From the NCBI GenBank assembly GCA_030605835.1, contig JAUWHO010000044.1:1-32447 (forward strand): 32,447 nucleotides of DNA, written 5' to 3'. The DNA comes from Candidatus Zixiibacteriota bacterium. GTDB lineage: Bacteria; Zixibacteria; MSB-5A5; DG-27. The position numbers and the translations under genes are program-made. Within the stretch, counting starts at the first letter, position 1, and every line of letters starts with the position of its first letter. Shown piece by piece: positions 10,484-17,640 of this stretch. The notes under the pieces are model-generated. The model was given only the letters and a program-made list of their open reading frames with translations, was not told the DNA's origin and searched no databases.

Positions 10484-10876
10484 CTATCCGTGGGGTCCGC
10501 GGCAGAAGCCGTCAACGTTCTCCTTGAGCTTTCCCTGGATGAAGAGCCCGACCGCCTCCTCGGCGGTGGCCTCCTGGTCTAAGACAAAGGAGCGAACTCC
10601 GGCTTCCTGGAGCGCCTGTCCTGCTCGCCAACCCATACCATAACTTATCACCGCCTCACAATCGCTCAACGCCTGGATTACTGAACCGTGGTTGGGCCCA
10701 CCCCCAGGGTGCCCATCTCCGGGACGCTGTCCCCGAGCATGGGGAGTGAAGGTATTGGGGCGTATCTCCCGTCCGGTGATCTTCTGATCCTCGATCTCAA
10801 AGATCGCAAAACAGGCACATCTGCCGAAGTGAGCGGAGATGTCCTCGCCGTTGTTCGAAGCGACAGCTACTTTCAT
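10484..10876 (-). CDS. NifX/NifB-type metal-cluster-binding protein (1)
   Basis: About 130 residues, a member of the dinitrogenase iron-molybdenum cofactor (NifX/NafY/ORP-like) fold family. Proteins of this fold carry or buffer Mo-, Fe- or Cu-containing clusters. Seen here: 'MKVAVASNNGEDISAHFGRCACFAIFEI', split as 'MKVAVAS' and 'HFGRCACF', then 'ISYGMGWRAGQALQEAG' and a C-terminal 'GFCRGPHG'. A Gly/Pro/His-rich loop (about residues 45-60) is inserted after the first half. I start it at 10876 (GGAG 4-5 bases upstream); the ten codons before it in the longer frame are heptad-repeat DNA. It is the last gene of the module and lies 86 bases after the first ferredoxin-ATPase. Confidence 0.85.
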   Translation of the reverse strand: MKVAVASNNGEDISAHFGRCACFAIFEIEDQKITGREIRPNTFTPHARGQRPGDGHPGGGPNHGSVIQALSDCEAVISYGMGWRAGQALQEAGVRSFVLDQEATAEEAVGLFIQGKLKENVDGFCRGPHG

Positions 10877-10897
10877 GCGCGACTCCGTCATTGATTT

Positions 10898-10939
10898 ATG
10901 GTCCATGGTTCCTGGTTCATAGTTGATGGTTCACGGTGC
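10898..10939. repeat. Heptad array between the ATPase and NifX-like genes
   Basis: Six 7-bp units in a row: atggtcc, atggttc, ctggttc, atagttg, atggttc, acggtgc. On the transcribed (minus) strand they read as accatg-type units, the same family as those at 4803-4844. They lie 3' of the ATPase gene (stop at 10963) and just before the NifX-like gene's ribosome-binding site. Confidence 0.8.
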
Positions 10940-10962: not shown

Positions 10963-11817
10963 TCATAGAGACAGCAATTTCTTCCAGATCGCCTCTATCT
11001 TTTCTGAGACACTATTGTGCGAATATTCTATTAGAGGAACCCCCGCAACTAAGGCCTCGGTTACAACCCTGTCGAAGGGAATCCTTCCCAATACCGGGAT
11101 ATCTCTATTCTCACACCAGTCCTCTATATCCTTCGAGATTTCGGGGTTGATATCATACTTATTGATAACCACGGCGCTCTTGACTCCGAAATGGTGAGCA
11201 ACCCCGATCACGCGCTCCAGGTCGTGACTTCCGGAGATGGTCGGTTCGGTGACCACCAAAGCCAAGTCCACGCCTGCCAAAGAAGATATCACCGGACAAC
11301 CAATCCCCGGCGGCCCGTCGATGATGACCAAATCGAGTTTCTCGCTTGAGGCCAGCTCCTTTGCCTTCTGCTTCACCAGTGTGACCAGCTTCCCGGAGTT
11401 CTCTTCTGCGATCCCCAGCCTGGCGTGGACCAGGGGGCCATACTTGGTGTCAGAAAGATACCATTCCCCGCAAAGGTTCTTCTCCATCCGGATTGCCTCC
11501 TCCGGACAGGTATAATGACAGACCCAGCAGCCCTCACAGCTTATCGGGTCAACAACGTAGTCTTCGGGTATGGCATCAAATCTGCACACCTCCCGGCAGC
11601 GGCCGCACTCGGTGCAAAGCTCCTGGTCGATCACCGCCTTCTCCCCCTCCTCGAATCTGTGTGTCTCCTTGACTTCGGGGTGGAGTAGAAGATGGAGGTC
11701 GGCGGCGTCAACATCGCAGTCCACCATCACCTTCTTTTTGGCCAAGACCGCAAAAGAGGCCGTCAGTATCGTCTTGCCGGTGCCCCCCTTTCCGCTTATG
11801 ACCGTGAGCTGTTTCAT
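10963..11817 (-). CDS. MinD/Mrp-type ATPase with inserted 2x[4Fe-4S] ferredoxin domain (1)
   Basis: A 284-residue cytoplasmic P-loop ATPase. The deviant Walker A motif GKGGTGKT is at 9-16, 'VDCDVDAADLHL' at 32-43 and 'VIIDGPPGIGCPV' in the middle. Between them sits a bacterial-ferredoxin insert with two CxxCxxCxxxC motifs (Cys68/71/74/78 and Cys94/97/100/104), enough for two [4Fe-4S] clusters. This architecture is known from ATPases next to NifX-like and orange-protein genes, where they are thought to assemble or deliver metal clusters; that role is inferred here. It starts 5 bases after the transporter's stop and is a paralogue of the protein at 12956-13828. Confidence 0.9.
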   Translation of the reverse strand: MKQLTVISGKGGTGKTILTASFAVLAKKKVMVDCDVDAADLHLLLHPEVKETHRFEEGEKAVIDQELCTECGRCREVCRFDAIPEDYVVDPISCEGCWVCHYTCPEEAIRMEKNLCGEWYLSDTKYGPLVHARLGIAEENSGKLVTLVKQKAKELASSEKLDLVIIDGPPGIGCPVISSLAGVDLALVVTEPTISGSHDLERVIGVAHHFGVKSAVVINKYDINPEISKDIEDWCENRDIPVLGRIPFDRVVTEALVAGVPLIEYSHNSVSEKIEAIWKKLLSL

Positions 11818-11821
11818 CTTC

Positions 11822-12850
11822 TTACAATCCGATTAAGTATAAGGCACCCCCGATTAAGAGCCCATAGACCAGATTGAATAGCTTTATCTTGACTGTATCC
11901 CTGACGCTGTAGGAGAGGAGCGGTAACATCCCGTGCCCGTCTTGGACGATGGAGCTGGTGAGAAGCACCGAGAAGGGGACAAGACCCTGAGTGAACATCA
12001 TCACGAAGACTAAATGAGGCCCCGACTCCGGGACCACCGCCACCAGAGCCGACAGAATCAACACCCAGACCATGTGAGCATCGACGAACGATTCTAAATC
12101 CCAGTAGTGCAAAGCTAGGTGCACCACCAGGAGAGCAAACAGAGTCCAGAGGAAAACCCGCCACAGATGTTCCTTTATGATGTGTCTCCAGATATGTTCG
12201 CGGAGATAATGGTCAGAAACTGTGGCGGTAGTGGCAGCGATGATCAACAGTATGGATAGCAGAAATCCTCTCTCGACATTCCAGGAGGGGGGACCGAAAA
12301 GTCCAAGGATGACCAGAAGAACGAGGATGATCACTAAGGAAAAAAGCACGAACCGAAACCCAAAGGGTGAGAAGATCTTCCTCCAGGCTTGAGGACTGAA
12401 GAGCTGAGCCTCTATGTGACTTTCGTGAACCAGCTCAACTTCGCACTTCTCCGAGGCTTTCACCCTCAAAAGAGGAGCCACCTTATCGGTCAACCAGGCC
12501 AAAGCTATCCCCAGAACGAAAAGCATCAGGAAAAGAAGCAGCGCCGTCTTGGGGAAGAGAGCTAACATCACGAAAGCCTCATCTCCGGAGGTGGCAATCA
12601 TCCCCCCGACGATGGCGCCGAAGCCGATAAGCCCGTGGACGTAAAAGGAGACGTTCATGAAAGCCCCCAGACAACCCGGCGTCGCCCCTAAAAAGGAGGC
12701 GGTAGTGTACTGGCGCCACCTGCCGCCTCGAATAATGGTGGCCATCTTACCCTTGCTTAAGACGTTGAGATAGTCGGTAATGAGCATCATCCCGAAGACG
12801 AAGATGCTGATGACTAGCGAGTGCTTGAGAATGTGAACTAGTTCCGACAT
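11822..12850 (-). CDS. ArsP_2-type putative metal/manganese transporter
   Basis: A 342-residue polytopic inner-membrane protein with about eight to ten hydrophobic helices and a charged central loop ('KVAPLLRVKASEKCEVELV' region, then 'SPQAWRKIFSPF'). It shows the two related half motifs of the ArsP_2 family (PF11449, annotated as putative arsenic efflux or manganese transporter): 'GATPGCLGAFMNVSFYVHG' with 'SGDEAFVM' in the first half, and 'VPESGPHLVFVM' with 'IVQDGHGMLPLLSYS' in the second. Conserved Asp/Glu/His residues sit within the membrane segments, consistent with cation transport. Its place between two cluster-binding ATPases suggests it moves the metal or oxyanion that the module handles; the substrate is not known. 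Confidence 0.82.
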   Translation of the reverse strand: MSELVHILKHSLVISIFVFGMMLITDYLNVLSKGKMATIIRGGRWRQYTTASFLGATPGCLGAFMNVSFYVHGLIGFGAIVGGMIATSGDEAFVMLALFPKTALLLFLMLFVLGIALAWLTDKVAPLLRVKASEKCEVELVHESHIEAQLFSPQAWRKIFSPFGFRFVLFSLVIILVLLVILGLFGPPSWNVERGFLLSILLIIAATTATVSDHYLREHIWRHIIKEHLWRVFLWTLFALLVVHLALHYWDLESFVDAHMVWVLILSALVAVVPESGPHLVFVMMFTQGLVPFSVLLTSSIVQDGHGMLPLLSYSVRDTVKIKLFNLVYGLLIGGALYLIGL

Positions 12851-12955: not shown

Positions 12956-13828
12956 TCAACCTGATTGGGCCTGCAATTCAACTTGTACTTGGCTTTCTAT
13001 CAAATTCCAGATACGGGCAAAAATCTGCAGATATCTCTCCTCCTCGTTGAGGATAGCAATACCTGTGGAGTAAAGACGGGCGAGCTTATGATCATACGGT
13101 ATCTCGCCTAATACGGGAATGGCCTCTCTTTGACAGTAATCCTTCACCCCCCGATCGCCGAGGTCGGCACGATTTATGATAACCCCTATGGGAATTCCGA
13201 GTTTTCTCACAACTCCCACCGCCAGTTCGAGATCGTTCAAACCGAATGGGGTGGGCTCGGTCACCAGCAGGGTGTAATCGCTCCCCTTGACGGATTCCAC
13301 CACCGGGCAGGAGGTGCCGGGGGGAACGTCGATTATGGTCACGGCATCGGGATCGATTCTCTCCTTGACCGCCCTTATGAGGGGTCCGGCCATCGCCTCC
13401 CCAATGTTCAAACGACCGTGAACGAAGTTGATGGAGCCGGATTTCCCCGCCTCCAGAACTCCCATCTCCCGATCCTTTTCTGCGATTGCTTTCTCCGGAC
13501 ACAGGAGAGTGCAACCGCCACAGCCATGGCAGAGCTGGTCGAAGACCATTACCTGATCTTTCAGCACCGCCAGGGCATTGTAGGCACAGACCTCTGCGCA
13601 CCTCCCGCAAAGGGTGCACATACTATCGTCGATTTTAGGAACAGGGATGGTTACCGGCTGTGAGGTGTCTAATTTCGGTTTCAGGAAGAGATGGGCATTC
13701 GGCTCCTCGACGTCGCAGTCGAGAAGTTGCACCTTCGCGGAATTCTCCCTTGCGAGAAACAGGGCTAGATTTACGGCGATGGTGGTCTTGCCGGTGCCAC
13801 CCTTGCCGCTGGCAACCGATATAATCAT
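12956..13828 (-). CDS. MinD/Mrp-type ATPase with inserted 2x[4Fe-4S] ferredoxin domain (2)
   Basis: A 290-residue paralogue of the ATPase at 10963-11817. I start it at 13828 because that ATG overlaps the upstream gene's TGA (ATGA) and the protein then opens 'MIISVASGKGGTGKT'. The deviant Walker A is at residues 8-15, 'LLDCDVEEPNAHLFL' follows, and the ferredoxin insert carries Cys71/74/77/81 and Cys100/103/106/110. 'TIIDVPPGTSCPV' is the Walker-B-like region. The overlap implies translational coupling with the metallo-hydrolase. A second, distinct copy in the same cluster suggests the two ATPases may work as a pair, as proposed for the ORP cluster ATPases of Desulfovibrio (family knowledge). 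The 105 bp before the transporter gene contain nothing I can identify. Confidence 0.9.
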   Translation of the reverse strand: MIISVASGKGGTGKTTIAVNLALFLARENSAKVQLLDCDVEEPNAHLFLKPKLDTSQPVTIPVPKIDDSMCTLCGRCAEVCAYNALAVLKDQVMVFDQLCHGCGGCTLLCPEKAIAEKDREMGVLEAGKSGSINFVHGRLNIGEAMAGPLIRAVKERIDPDAVTIIDVPPGTSCPVVESVKGSDYTLLVTEPTPFGLNDLELAVGVVRKLGIPIGVIINRADLGDRGVKDYCQREAIPVLGEIPYDHKLARLYSTGIAILNEEERYLQIFARIWNLIESQVQVELQAQSG

Positions 13829-14607
13829 TCTATATTTATTCTGCTTCCAACCCCGAGTTTGATGAAATCCTCTTTGTATCCCCTCTCGAAGAGCTCTCGG
13901 CACTCATCTCCACTGCAGTGGCAGGGGGCGGATTTAACAACTCCCAAGCGTCTGAAATCCTGGACGATTTTCCCTATCTCACGCTCGGAGGTTGAAAGCA
14001 GGTGGAATCCTCCCATCACCAGATGGATATCCTCCTTGAAAGATTTCTTAACTTGCTCGATGATCTCCACTATCCCGGGATGTGCGCACCCAGTGATGAT
14101 CACCAAACCTTTCGAGGGTTTGACCACCAAGGATTGTTCTCTAATGCCGGTTCCTAACTCCCCAGTGGAGAAGACGTCTTTGCAAACTTCAATTGGGTCA
14201 CCAACTTCGACGTAGTTGGCTCCTAGAGATTTGACTCTCTTTTTGAAGTTGGAGGGAAATGACGGTAAAAGAAAGACGTCCACCTTAGCATTTTTCTCCA
14301 AAAAACCCTCCAGGCCTCCGGTGTGGTCGCCGTGTATGTGGGAGAGAAAAACAACCTCGACCTTGGTGGGATCTACCCTTAACTTCTCCATGTTATAGAG
14401 TAAAGTCTCGCTGTCTCCACCGGTGTCAAAGAGGATAGTCCTCTGGTAGCCCTCCACCAAGCAGGAAAAGCCCCAGCCGGTTCTCAGCCCTTCAACCGAG
14501 GGGTTATTATCGTAGACTACGGTTATAGTCATCTCCTCCTCTGCCATCGAAACTGCTCCGCTACATATAATAAACAGCGCCACCGGAGACAAGGCAAACA
14601 GACGCAT
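13825..14607 (-). CDS. Exported metallo-beta-lactamase-fold hydrolase
   Basis: A 260-residue protein. The metal-binding motif HIHGDH is seen at residues 90-95 ('FLSHIHGDHTGG') with Asp61 ('LFDTGG') and later His residues in 'TGCAHPG' and 'MGGFHLL'. The pattern is closest to the subgroup annotated as 7,8-dihydropterin-6-methyl-4-aminobenzene-phosphate synthase-like, whose annotation is often too specific. An N-terminal hydrophobic stretch ('FALSPVALFIICSGAVSMA') looks like a signal peptide, which is unexpected beside cytoplasmic cofactor genes. A strong GGAGGAGG site lies 6 bases before the ATG. Its end overlaps the next gene by 4 bp. A short TTCCGG/CCGGAA hairpin (14623-14640) sits just upstream. 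Confidence 0.85.
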   Translation of the reverse strand: MRLFALSPVALFIICSGAVSMAEEEMTITVVYDNNPSVEGLRTGWGFSCLVEGYQRTILFDTGGDSETLLYNMEKLRVDPTKVEVVFLSHIHGDHTGGLEGFLEKNAKVDVFLLPSFPSNFKKRVKSLGANYVEVGDPIEVCKDVFSTGELGTGIREQSLVVKPSKGLVIITGCAHPGIVEIIEQVKKSFKEDIHLVMGGFHLLSTSEREIGKIVQDFRRLGVVKSAPCHCSGDECRELFERGYKEDFIKLGVGSRINIE

Positions 14608-14676: not shown

Positions 14677-14916
14677 CTAGGCCCTGGTCATGGTGCCGTT
14701 GCATTTGGGGCAGGTTACCTGGTTGCAGGGGATACCAATTTGATGGGGAACCTTTGCTCCACAGGAGGGGCAAACACATTCCCCACTCGGCCCCATGCCC
14801 TGACCGCCCATACGACCTCTGCCGCCTCCTCCACCTCCCCGACCGCCCCCGCGACCCATTCCTCTTCCGGTACCGGGTCCCTGACCCGTCGGTCCAGTTC
14901 CATCTCCTCTTGGCAT
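14677..14916 (-). CDS. Small Gly-rich zinc-ribbon protein with DUF5320-like N terminus
   Basis: A 79-residue protein. It opens 'MPRGDGTGPTGQGPGTGRG', the same tag that starts the two DUF5320-type proteins of this module. A Gly/Arg-rich linker follows (residues about 20-42), then a four-cysteine knuckle, 'CPSC' and 'CPKC' with extra Cys in 'CVC' and 'IPC', likely binding zinc or iron. It has a GGAG site upstream and stays in the module's orientation. Function is unknown; a metal-carrier or scaffold role fits the context. Confidence 0.75.
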   Translation of the reverse strand: MPRGDGTGPTGQGPGTGRGMGRGGGRGGGGGGRGRMGGQGMGPSGECVCPSCGAKVPHQIGIPCNQVTCPKCNGTMTRA

Positions 14917-15008: not shown

Positions 15009-15383
15009 CTACATCCCTCCCTTCATTCCGAAATGACCGGGGACGGAGGCATTGGAGAGATCCTGGAGCTTGCCCTCCTTGAACGACTTCAATGACTCCT
15101 CAACGGTTCCCGAGGCGCCGCCGTAAACTTTAATGCCGGCACCCCGGAGGGTGCGAAAGGCGTTCGGCCCCACGTTTCCGGTGATTACCGCCTCCACCCC
15201 CTTATCCAGCACCAGCTGGGAGGCCTGAATCCCAGCGCCTCCACCGGCACTGACGGCGGGGTTCGAGATCGCCTCAAAAGAATCGGTCTCACTATCAACG
15301 ATCAAGAAGTAGGCGCATCTCCCGAAGCGAGGATCCACCTCGGAGCTGAGTTTATCGCCCTGAGAAGTAATTGCGATTTTCAC
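15009..15383 (-). CDS. NifX/NifB-type metal-cluster-binding protein (2)
   Basis: A 124-residue protein of the same fold family as the one at 10484-10876, and closer to the typical size. It reads 'MKIAITSQGDKLSSEVDPRF', then 'GRCAYFLIVD', 'VITGNVGPNAFRTLRGAGI' and 'VYGGASGTVEESL'. The GTG start (15383) has AGGAG eight bases upstream. The second copy in the cluster supports a cluster-carrier system that uses two such proteins. There is no nitrogenase gene here, so a role in nitrogen fixation is not implied; the related orange protein binds a Mo-Cu-S cluster. Confidence 0.88.
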   Translation of the reverse strand: MKIAITSQGDKLSSEVDPRFGRCAYFLIVDSETDSFEAISNPAVSAGGGAGIQASQLVLDKGVEAVITGNVGPNAFRTLRGAGIKVYGGASGTVEESLKSFKEGKLQDLSNASVPGHFGMKGGM

Positions 15384-15437: not shown

Positions 15438-15848
15438 TTAAGCGACCTTGTCGCCTTTACCGCTGGCTTTGGCCTGTTTCAGCTCATCCAGCCTGCCGCG
15501 CAACCCGCCTATCTCCTCTTCCAGAGCTTTGATATCATCCTGAATAACGATCCTCTCCTGCTCTGGAGTCATGGGCGGGTAACCGTAGTCAGGGGGGTAG
15601 GCTGGGTCGTACCCCGGGTAGGCATAAGTTGGGGCATAAGCCGGTGGATATCCGGGATAACCATATCCCCAGCCGCGACCTCCTCCCCAGGCGCGGCCGC
15701 GGCCACCACCCCGGGGGAAACCGCCTCTGCCGACTCCGTAGAAGCCCCCACCTCTGAATGGGGAAACACCTCCCGGCCAGCAGAAGCCCATGCCCCGACC
15801 AGTGCGAGCACCCATACCCAGCGGTCCAGTTCCATCGAATCCTGGCAT
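15438..15848 (-). CDS. DUF5320-type Gly/Tyr-rich protein with C-terminal coiled coil
   Basis: 136 residues. It starts 'MPGFDGTGPLGMGARTGRG', continues with 'FCWPGGVSPF' and a Gly/Arg, then Tyr/Pro-rich region ('YPGYPPAYAPTYAYPGYD'). It ends in a helical, charged segment (about 90-130, 'IKALEEEIGGLRGRLDELK') that probably forms a coiled coil. AGGAGG stands seven bases before the ATG at 15848, which is why I prefer it to the GTG two codons earlier. Families with this tag are regularly found beside NifX-like and DUF134 genes; no biochemical function is established that I know of. Confidence 0.8.
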   Translation of the reverse strand: MPGFDGTGPLGMGARTGRGMGFCWPGGVSPFRGGGFYGVGRGGFPRGGGRGRAWGGGRGWGYGYPGYPPAYAPTYAYPGYDPAYPPDYGYPPMTPEQERIVIQDDIKALEEEIGGLRGRLDELKQAKASGKGDKVA

Positions 15849-15919
15849 TTTCACTCCTCCTTTCTTTTACCTTTCTCTCTGATTTAGAAGTAACTCAAAG
15901 TCCATGGCGCATAGGGGAG

Positions 15920-16168
15920 CTAAGCTAAACGGTATGGCGGATAAGGCCACATCCAGCCTCTCCCCCAACCGCGTCCCGAGTACCCGTATCCCCGGCTTCT
16001 CCGTCCCCAGCCGCGGCCGCGGCCGCCACCCCGGCGGAAACCGCCTCTGCCGACACCGAAGAATCCTCCACCTCTAAATGGAGAAACACCTCCCGGCCAG
16101 CAGAAGCCCATGCCCCGACCTGTTCGGGGGCCATAGCCCATCGGTCCAGTTCCGTCGAATCCTGGCAT
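15920..16168 (-). CDS. DUF5320-type Gly/Arg-rich protein, short paralogue
   Basis: 82 residues, nearly identical in its first ~50 residues to the protein at 15438-15848 ('MPGFDGTGPMGYGPRTGRG', 'FCWPGGVSPFRGGGFFGVG'). It lacks the coiled coil and ends in 'WPYPPYRLA'. The leader sequences of the two genes are also alike (GGAGGAATGAAAATG here, AGGAGGAGTGAAAATG there), so this is a tandem duplication. I start at the second ATG (16168) for correct spacing to the GGAGG. Possibly a partner or decoy of the longer copy; function unknown. Confidence 0.78.
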   Translation of the reverse strand: MPGFDGTGPMGYGPRTGRGMGFCWPGGVSPFRGGGFFGVGRGGFRRGGGRGRGWGRRSRGYGYSGRGWGRGWMWPYPPYRLA

Positions 16169-16269
16169 TTTCATTCCTCCTTTCTCTTACGTTCTTGAAT
16201 GAAAACATTTATAGAACATCTCGATTGACTCTTTCTGTTTTAAGGAACGGATTTCTCCGACCATAAACA

Positions 16270-16746
16270 TTATCTCCAACCTCCTCCCCAACCTCTGCGG
16301 CCTCCACGACCTCTCCCTCTCCGACCTCGTGCACCTCGATTCTCCAACATGCTATTGACGTATTCACTTCCGCACTGAGGGCAATCTGGAGGTCTCGGAA
16401 AACCGGGGGGAACCTCCCAGTTGTGATCGCACCGCCGACAGTAGAAGATCGCTTCCGGTAGAGCGTAACTGCCACCCTCTATTCTCAAGGCGTCGCCGTT
16501 GACCAGAGCTTGAGCGATCTTTCTGTGCGCTGACTCCAAAATTCTCCCGAAGGTCTGGCGGGAGATGTTCATCTGTTGAGCCGCTTGTTCTTGATACAAC
16601 CCTTCGAGGTGAGCAAGCCGAACCGCCTCTAACTCGTCCACGGTGAGGTTCACCTCCCCAAGATCTCTCAGGGGGATACCCTGGGGCTTGAAATAGCTGG
16701 CTCCCGGCTCCCAGTTGACCCATCTGTTCTTTATGGGACGAGGCAT
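16270..16746 (-). CDS. DUF134 family DNA-binding protein
   Basis: 158 residues, beginning 'MPRPIKNRWV' (16746), four bases after the TrmO stop. Residues ~35-85 form a sigma-region-4-like helix-turn-helix: 'LTVDELEAVRLAHLEGLYQ' followed by 'AAQQMNISRQTFGRIL'. A four-cysteine ribbon comes next ('YCRRC' ... 'CPQC'). The tail is Gly/Arg-rich ('GRRGRGRGGRRGWGGGWR'), like the DUF5320 proteins beside it. DUF134 proteins are predicted transcription regulators, and the zinc ribbon suggests metal or redox sensing. As the second gene behind a promoter with a perfect palindrome (17215-17230) it is the best candidate for the module's own regulator. Confidence 0.88.
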   Translation of the reverse strand: MPRPIKNRWVNWEPGASYFKPQGIPLRDLGEVNLTVDELEAVRLAHLEGLYQEQAAQQMNISRQTFGRILESAHRKIAQALVNGDALRIEGGSYALPEAIFYCRRCDHNWEVPPGFPRPPDCPQCGSEYVNSMLENRGARGRRGRGRGGRRGWGGGWR

Positions 16747-16750
16747 ATCG

Positions 16751-17197
16751 CTACTCGCTGAGTTTATCCTCCAACCAACCGGAGGAGGCCTCCGGGACGG
16801 AATCAAATTGGGGGACATAAGGCTTTATGTCCAGAAGCGGGGTTTTATCGATCATATCGACGCCAGAGACCTCAAGCACGTTCTCTTTCCTTTTGACCAG
16901 TTGCACCACCGTCAATCCAATCGGATTTGGGCGGCAGGGATGGCGTATGGCGAAAATGCCTCTTTCTTCTGGGCCCAGATAGGGCTTTGCCAGAAGCTTC
17001 GCCTCTCCGGAGCAGTGGAAATGGTAGAGCAAGATGATATGCGAGAACCTCTCCACATCCTTCAAACCCTCCGAAAATTCTGGATGAACCTCCACCGTTC
17101 CCTCTACCTGCTGCTTGAGCCTTCCCTGTATCGGAATCTCCCCTAAGTTCTTGTAGGGAGTGTGAATAACTCCGATCGGCTTTAGTTTCACCTCCAT
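16751..17197 (-). CDS. trmO: TrmO/TsaA (YaeB-like) tRNA methyltransferase
   Basis: A 148-residue single-domain member of the TsaA/TrmO family. In E. coli TrmO uses S-adenosylmethionine to methylate N6 of t6A37 in tRNA. Family motifs are 'PIGVIHTPYKN', 'DVERFSHIILLYHFH' and 'IRHPCRPNPIGLTVV'. It lacks the C-terminal extension of E. coli TrmO, as many short archaeal and bacterial relatives do; such short members often sit beside metal-related genes, so a different methylation target is possible. It is the first gene of the module, 37 bases after the predicted transcription start. Confidence 0.85.
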   Translation of the reverse strand: MEVKLKPIGVIHTPYKNLGEIPIQGRLKQQVEGTVEVHPEFSEGLKDVERFSHIILLYHFHCSGEAKLLAKPYLGPEERGIFAIRHPCRPNPIGLTVVQLVKRKENVLEVSGVDMIDKTPLLDIKPYVPQFDSVPEASSGWLEDKLSE

Positions 17198-17214: not shown

Positions 17215-17230
17215 ATGAGCATATGCTCAT
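17215..17230. promoter_or_regulatory. Perfect 16-bp palindromic operator
   Basis: ATGAGCATATGCTCAT is self-complementary over its whole length. It lies at about +4 to +20 relative to the start predicted from the promoter at 17241-17268 and 18 bases before the TrmO start codon, an ideal position for repressor binding. The likely ligand is the DUF134 regulator encoded two genes down (inference). Confidence 0.65.
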
Positions 17231-17240
17231 TACTACTATC

Positions 17241-17268
17241 AATATATCGGCAAGTTTGAGCTTGTCAA
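17241..17268 (-). promoter_or_regulatory. Strong sigma-70-like promoter of the NifX/MinD module
   Basis: On the minus strand a perfect TTGACA (17268-17263) and TATATT (17246-17241, five of six) have a 16-bp spacer. Transcription should begin near 17234 and run into trmO and the following genes. Confidence 0.65.
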
Positions 17269-17522: not shown

Positions 17523-17640
17523 CGTTCCAGCTCTGGTGGGGATTGAACCCCCTCCCTCACGCGGGCACGTGTGCAATACCTGCCCGAGCTTTGTGACGGC
17601 ACGGTTAAGTCCCAGTGGCAGAGGCCACTGGGCTACCCTC
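17523..17640 (-). repeat. Composite palindromic element, copy 2
   Basis: Read on the minus strand from 17640: GAGGGTAGCCCAGTGGCCTCT, here shortened to its core GTAGCCCAGTGGCCTCT, then a CCCAGTGGC/GCCACTGGG hairpin (17613-17634). GTGCCGTCACAAAGCTCGGGC follows, then TGCA and GTGCCCG, GGGGGTTCAATCCCCAC, and AGCTGGAA near 17525. The order and many of the bases match copy 1 at 4845-4995. Copy 2 lies 3' of rsgA in the same orientation, as copy 1 lies 3' of leuD. It superficially resembles a tRNA T-arm but does not fold as a tRNA. Confidence 0.72.

Follow-up and report, generated by a model that had tools for sequence, protein, structure and literature searches.

This locus raises the question of what acts on a perfect 16-bp palindrome that follows a promoter of near-consensus sequence, and whether it is the DUF134 protein, the product of the second gene behind that promoter. 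The window, by which we mean the whole stretch of 32,447 nucleotides analysed (contig JAUWHO010000044.1 of a Candidatus Zixiibacteriota bacterium), carries on its minus strand TTGACA, a 16-bp spacer, TATATT and then ATGAGCATATGCTCAT, ahead of genes that include those for NifX-type and MinD/Mrp-type proteins (Table 1). As judged from the sequence comparisons described below, DUF134 is very probably a local autorepressor of its own NifX/MinD (orange-protein-like) operon, acting via an operator of the ATGAGCATATGCTCAT type.

Promoter, palindrome and genes in the window

The promoter, which the earlier note had called near-ideal and placed ahead of the module, agrees with that description; it matches the consensus at 11 of 12 positions and lies upstream of trmO-DUF134, and one other site with 11/12 matches was found in the 8 kb scanned. 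The same note had put the palindrome at +4 to +20. The perfect 16-bp palindrome after the promoter was confirmed, and its span was corrected to +5 to +20 (it starts 10 bp past the -10 hexamer, and +1 was set 7 nt past the -10). The third claim concerning the module, that the DUF134 protein combines an HTH with a four-cysteine ribbon, also stood: the protein belongs to the family (DUF134/UPF0251, PF02001, 75.9 bits; gathering cut-off, 27), and C102, C105, C121 and C124 (numbered without the Met) are conserved in 90% or more of 58 sequences.

Table 1. Positions of the promoter, the predicted operator and the downstream genes in the window
Feature	Position	Strand	Evidence
-35 hexamer TTGACA	17263..17268	-	
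-10 hexamer TATATT, 16-bp spacer	17241..17246	-	
Predicted DUF134 operator, perfect 16-bp palindrome ATGAGCATATGCTCAT, ~+5 to +20	17215..17230	.	
TrmO (tRNA m6t6A methyltransferase), first gene of predicted operon; start at 17197	16751..17197	-	PF01980 E 1.9e-41; TIGR00104 above cut-off
DUF134 protein, predicted autorepressor, second gene; sigma-region-4-like HTH and CxxC/CPxC ribbon	16270..16746	-	PF02001 E 3.9e-21; model pLDDT 89.3
Start of recognition helix, codons S62-R63-Q64-T65-F66-G67-R68-I69; covarying R63 and R68	16540..16563	-	
Four-cysteine ribbon CxxC...CPxC of DUF134	16372..16440	-	
DUF5320 protein	15920..16174	-	PF17253 E 4.9e-9
DUF5320 protein	15438..15854	-	PF17253 E 4.1e-13
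NifX/ORP-type Nitro_FeMo-Co protein	15009..15383	-	PF02579 E 1.1e-27
Small Gly-rich protein, two CxxC pairs	14677..14916	-	translation; no NCBIfam match
Metallo-beta-lactamase-fold protein	13825..14607	-	PF00753 E 2.5e-11
MinD/Mrp-type ATPase with 4Fe-4S domains	12956..13903	-	PF01656, Fer4
ArsP_2 / arsenic efflux-type permease	11822..12850	-	PF11449 E 3.9e-34; NF037962 above cut-off
Second MinD/Mrp-type ATPase with 4Fe-4S domains	10963..11817	-	
Second NifX-like protein	10484..10906	-	nifX TIGR02663 E 1.2e-6, MrpORP E 6.2e-12, both below cut-off

Taken alone, the palindrome is at chance level and has no significance: one perfect 16-bp palindrome was observed in the 32-kb window against 0.505 expected, and at least one occurred in 82 of 200 simulated windows. 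What makes it significant is where it lies and that it is conserved, not its mere occurrence. At up to three mismatches the word was found once in the window (0.07 expected); in the whole genome, which has a single DUF134 gene, it was found once at up to two mismatches, and 7 other places each had three mismatches. A plasmid search using 101 bp around the site gave no match. No tRNA was found in the window by ARAGORN; a T-arm-like sequence, GGGGGTTCAATCCCC, was observed on the minus strand at 17529-17590, a region with only a chance-level Rfam match to tRNA-like RNA (E 0.99).

The genes downstream follow one another on the minus strand in the order of Table 1. Since some of the intergenic gaps are 60-100 bp and leave room for internal promoters, we infer the extent of the operon, as we do physical binding, the dimer state and repression. 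Three separate proteins of the window scored 36, 64 and 45.5 bits with the MrpORP profile (NF041136, for an Mrp ATPase fused to an ORP domain), below the equivalog cut-off of 450 bits. Among 78 DUF134 loci, the flanking sequence covered contained a NifX-like gene at 54 and a MinD/Mrp ATPase gene at 28. Neighbours were scanned by a longest-ORF rule (57 first-downstream and 53 second-downstream genes from the 78 loci), and Nitro_FeMo-Co was by far the commonest first-downstream family (26/57, the protein of the window excluded). DUF134 itself was present in 83/247, 192/299 and 41/147 genomes of three phyla.

In the structure model of DUF134, the long recognition helix begins with the residues that covary with the operator (see below). 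A sequence search returned no solved structure of DUF134, and Foldseek matched nothing to the full-length model at E 0.001 or better. In some classes having an operator the ribbon pattern is absent, for example in 23 of 29 members of the SQ..HR class; thus, the ribbon is not needed for DNA recognition. A NifX-like domain follows DUF134 in the same frame in at least 16 of 320 proteins (an undercount, many loci having ended early). Such one-frame fusions, at L190, L197, L198, L226, L227, L187, L202 and L139, are candidates for a one-protein cluster sensor.

Predicted operator words and recognition helices of DUF134 genes

DUF134 was found above the Pfam cut-off in 16 of 58 related genomes (17 genes), and a palindrome was present upstream of all 16 genes having upstream DNA (L057 has none). 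Eleven of these palindromes were ATGAGCATATGCTCAT at 0-2 mismatches, and five had the ATGTGC..GCACAT form. The site is 468 bp upstream of DUF134 in the window and in a genus relative, with trmO between, and 12-32 bp ahead of the start codon in the other related genomes. Note that the best upstream palindrome and the DUF134 start of Zixibacteria contig L081 are the same as those of the genus relative (G001). Of the 11 genomes that have a window-type DUF134, 10 carry the window word at up to one mismatch, compared with 4 of the 47 others (Fisher p 2e-7); the near-matches inspected in genomes lacking a window-type DUF134 (L010-L013, L018, L021 and L022) were inside open reading frames.

In the wider survey, named genomes yielded 80 DUF134 loci, archaeal ones among them, spread over many phyla; as these were the best 80 of 518 relatives, the sample is biased to closer ones. 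With a class search this gave 116 genes, 110 of them distinct after duplicates and weak hits were dropped. A palindromic motif was searched for in each helix class, blind to the window word, and scored as the log-likelihood gain compared with shuffles. The motif of the GR class (51 genes) was ATGAGCATATGCTCAT itself (gain 493; shuffles 31-34), that of the GN class (23 genes) was ATT[AG]GCATATGC[CT]AAT (210; 28-30), that of the QR class (20 genes) was ATGTGCATATGCACAT (185; 22-30), and 8 genes gave the weak motif ATGAATwwwwATTCAT (33; 19-23). Words of the own class, at up to two mismatches within 150 bp, were present in 37/51, 18/23, 13/19 and 4/8 genes, respectively, and in 0, 3, 0 and 42 of 5400 shuffles (L121, of which the upstream region is short, was excluded, and that of L106 is partly N). 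For several of the genes missed, the word was 380-1050 bp upstream and, like that of the window, preceded a leader gene.

Further sets were then collected by place: of the Desulfobacterota-like places without a locus 68 were taken and 6 left (contig ends or already in the set), 8 of 16 archaeal places were taken, and the Bacillota were the first 40 listed minus one already in the set. The word of the GR class was recovered again from 50 further Desulfobacterota-like GR genes (353; 40-45). Ten archaeal HQST genes gave ATGCATwATwATGCAT (87; 21-22), 32 archaeal SQ genes gave ATGAATATATATTCAT (70; 23-27), and the Bacillota set (70 genes) gave a weaker related word, wTkrACATATGTymAw (120; 35), in a fraction of about 0.37 of the genes. 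The Desulfobacterota-like SRGTVQR genes had no adjacent site; their predicted GTGC word is farther upstream, typically at about 400 bp (11/18 within 1.4 kb at up to three mismatches; de novo gain 113 compared with about 30).

A single operator for all DUF134 was ruled out, the gains of the SRPTVTR class (10 genes; 36 vs 24-29) and of the Bacillota SR..FQR genes (31 genes; 31 vs 22-27) being near those of the shuffles, with no convincing motif in either; for many Bacillota DUF134 genes no operator was detected. The SRPTVTR genes (L107, L173, L175, L176, L182, L183, L184, L188, L192 and L196) may have other control. The ARTTVQS class comprised 4 genes only. As side observations, the SRH.[FY]GR helix (L139, L177, L202, L274, L279, L281, L287 and L303, several of them NifX-fused) pairs with sites of the ATGCTCAwwTGAGCAT type, in which the TGAGCAT heptamer is reversed in orientation (8 of 9 genes, some imperfect; gain 67 vs 24-31), and L323 (SPATFCR) and L281 (SRATFCR) have sites of the ATGAAATATAT type, a further word in the code.

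Half-sites were numbered A1 T2 b3 b4 b5 b6 and the helix was written S-[R/Q]-x-T-F-x-[R/N]. The correspondence of helix to half-site was SRxTFGR with ATGAGC, SRQTFGN with ATTRGC, SRGT[IV]QR with ATGTGC, SQPTFHR with ATGAAT and HQSTFQR with ATGCAT; the window (SRQTFGR with ATGAGC) follows it. Where the last helix residue is R, b3 is G, and where it is N, b3 is T; an R as the first residue pairs with b6=C (G on the opposite strand), a Q in that place with b6=T (A on the opposite strand). The pairing of Arg with guanine and of Asn or Gln with adenine is the usual recognition chemistry.

These rules were fixed before 120 further loci were collected (121, minus duplicates). A word-blind caller placed an operator within 100 bp of 35 of the 120 held-out genes and of 99 of 2400 shuffles (about 4% false calls). 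In the held-out half-sites, position 3 agreed in 10/10 cases for N to T and 47/60 for R to G, and position 6 in 6/6 for Q to T and 50/62 for R to C. With the same caller the first set gave 32/32 (N to T), 91/104 (R to G), 125/128 (R to C) and 8/8 (Q to T), and for the set that immediately preceded the rules the counts were 35/52 (R to G), 20/28 (R to C) and 22/24 (Q to T). Half-sites of the form GCTTAT (b3=A) were always on the right-hand side (27 right, 0 left) and were followed by AA in 24 cases and TA in 3; thus, the operator incorporates the -10 box at these sites. Exceptions to the code were L266 and L285 (SRxTFGR with ATTGGCATATGCTTAT) and L073 (ATAGGCGTATGCCAAT).

On a tree built with the helix masked, residue and base agreed in 103/105 and 103/104 genes with an operator for the two positions, the best tree implying 7 and 6 residue changes. 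Only two independent pairs on well-supported branches were obtained for the last helix residue and one for the first, and the pairings were fully concordant in 192 and 180 of 200 and never opposed, on a tree that is poorly resolved because the protein is short. Phylogenetic independence of the covariation is no more than suggested by these comparisons. Paralogues within one genome also differed in their words: SRPTFSR/ATGAAC and SRPTFGR/ATGAGC in G246, SQPTFHR/ATGAAT and SRPTFGR/ATGAGC in G360, SRHTFGR/GCTC and SRATFCR/GAAA in G331, and SRQTFGN/ATTGGC (L070) and SRATFAR/ATGAGC in G145.

The exact word ATKRGCATATGCYMAT was present in 15 of 30 whole genomes, once in each (the reversed control, in none), and all 15 sites were at DUF134 loci, 14 of them at survey loci and one ahead of the second DUF134 of G145. 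One of the 14, the extra predicted operator ATTGGCATATGCTAAT at L163 (1501-1516), precedes a MinD/Mrp ATPase gene 2.4 kb upstream of DUF134; a second local target is therefore possible.

Operator position and alternative explanations

The position relative to promoters was examined in 125 distinct bacterial operator contexts: 66 operators overlap the region from -35 to -10, 42 are at 0-20 bp past the -10, 2 are upstream of the -35, and 15 have no promoter-like match. As in the window, where the operator directly follows its own promoter, 108 of the 125 thus have the arrangement expected of an autorepressor, overlapping or directly following a sigma70-like promoter; of 375 random positions, 327 had no promoter. 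In 44 of the 108 operator-promoter pairs the word occupies the spacer between -35 and -10 and extends into the -10. This overlap excludes a purely RNA role and is suited to steric blocking. Further claims of the earlier note, namely the repressor-type position, the DUF134 operator and autoregulation, are supported by residue-base covariation together with promoter geometry. The condition by which the note would have been refuted, absence of the palindrome at orthologous clusters, did not hold, as the palindrome was present at the related genes and recovered de novo in other lineages. The operator, its family-wide conservation, the helix covariation and the promoter overlap are, at the level of sequence, supported.

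The palindrome might instead belong to another regulator of NifX/MinD clusters, e.g. a metal-dependent global repressor, with DUF134 a mere neighbour; a NifX-cluster regulator would be expected to co-occur with DUF134, given the NifX-like genes at 54 of the 78 loci. We consider this improbable, because the word shifts with the recognition helix of DUF134 itself, paralogues within one genome carry different words, exact sites number about one per genome and lie at DUF134, and the inspected near-matches fall inside open reading frames. It is a little less probable still that DUF134 binds there as an activator, for instance by a MerR-like distortion of the spacer. The 44 operators located inside the spacer and into the -10 would allow it, but the spacers were 16-18 bp as the scan demanded, mostly 17, and not of the lengthened kind that characterizes MerR-type promoters, and the 42 sites past the -10, that of the window included, suit blocking only.

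The palindrome of the window is also part of the transcript, and its folding (-8.8 kcal/mol, z -2.4) is better than that of shuffles, as expected of a 5' leader hairpin tuning trmO translation or RNA stability. This reading was rejected as very improbable, since the word is often upstream of the start site (in the 44 pairs it is between -35 and -10 and untranscribed) and the Rfam search of the window gave no match. As for a chance palindrome, one of 16 bp is expected per 32 kb about half the time; conservation and de novo rediscovery refute chance, of which the probability is negligible.

The reading that we prefer is thus autorepression by DUF134. A DUF134 dimer would read the two 5'-ATGAGC half-sites through the start of the sigma-region-4-like helix SRQTFGRI, and at about +5 to +20 it would block transcription of its own operon (trmO-DUF134-DUF5320-NifX-MinD...). 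It would act as a local switch under negative feedback, and each genome would have one main site. The inducing signal, a metal or redox one in the proposal of the earlier note, may come from the cysteine ribbon or from NifX/metal-cluster products. More tentatively, and with a probability well below even, DUF134 might sense the state of a metal or of an Fe-S/heterometal cluster that the operon's NifX and MinD proteins make or carry, via the ribbon or a fused NifX domain, and so exert feedback on the assembly of clusters in anaerobic bacteria and archaea.

Known systems and implications

SorC proteins have a sugar-binding effector domain. The HTH core of DUF134 resembles that of DeoR/SorC (DNA-bound DeoR domain, PDB 7bhy; 39 columns, 44% identity, rmsd 0.6 A), with the helix NISRPTVSRLL compared with NISRQTFGRIL in DUF134; unlike SorC, DUF134 proteins carry a cysteine ribbon or a NifX domain, or lack both. 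The fold of model residues ~13-85 also resembles sigma region 4 bound to -35 DNA (PDB 2h27 and 1ku7), with middling Z scores of 6.6 and 5.9; Z was 5.9-7.3 over the sigma region 4 chains, which can mean only a common arrangement. The TIGR02937 sigma70-ECF profile matched DUF134 at E 8.6e-7 and 28.7 bits, below its cut-off of 42.9, and among the Pfam hits listed for the protein there were no other sigma regions, including region 2. Whereas sigma region 4 binds a -35 element, the predicted target of DUF134 is a palindrome over promoters, with repression as the outcome. In the LacI and MerR families (PMC2978694 and PMC5045206), helix residues of local regulators correlate with operator bases; the DUF134 code is similar in this respect, but belongs to a different protein family.

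ORP proteins are NifX-like. Those of Desulfovibrio vulgaris include MinD-type proteins with 4Fe-4S motifs, and two divergent orp operons are under sigma54 and the activator DVU2106, according to passages of PMC3897727 and PMC6345978. As far as those passages go, the orp operons and the DUF134 clusters both have NifX-like and MinD-type genes, and the window, unlike the orp operons, has a sigma70-like promoter and a predicted DUF134 operator. DVU2107 is absent from both papers, DUF134 from PMC3897727 and "DUF" from PMC6345978. No description of a DUF134 operator or regulon was found in the literature searched (subscription papers and RegPrecise were outside its scope), the matching passages of PMC545781 contain no DUF134 regulon, and the operator motif strings occurred only in papers with unrelated titles. 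Priority for the DUF134 operator is not certain.

DUF134 is a family of unknown function that is widespread, and many of its hosts have little genetics. The operator and the small residue-to-base code would make DUF134 a testable transcription factor, of which the targets may be predicted from sequence, and the operator would also offer a way into how NifX/orange-protein clusters, of unsettled function, are regulated.
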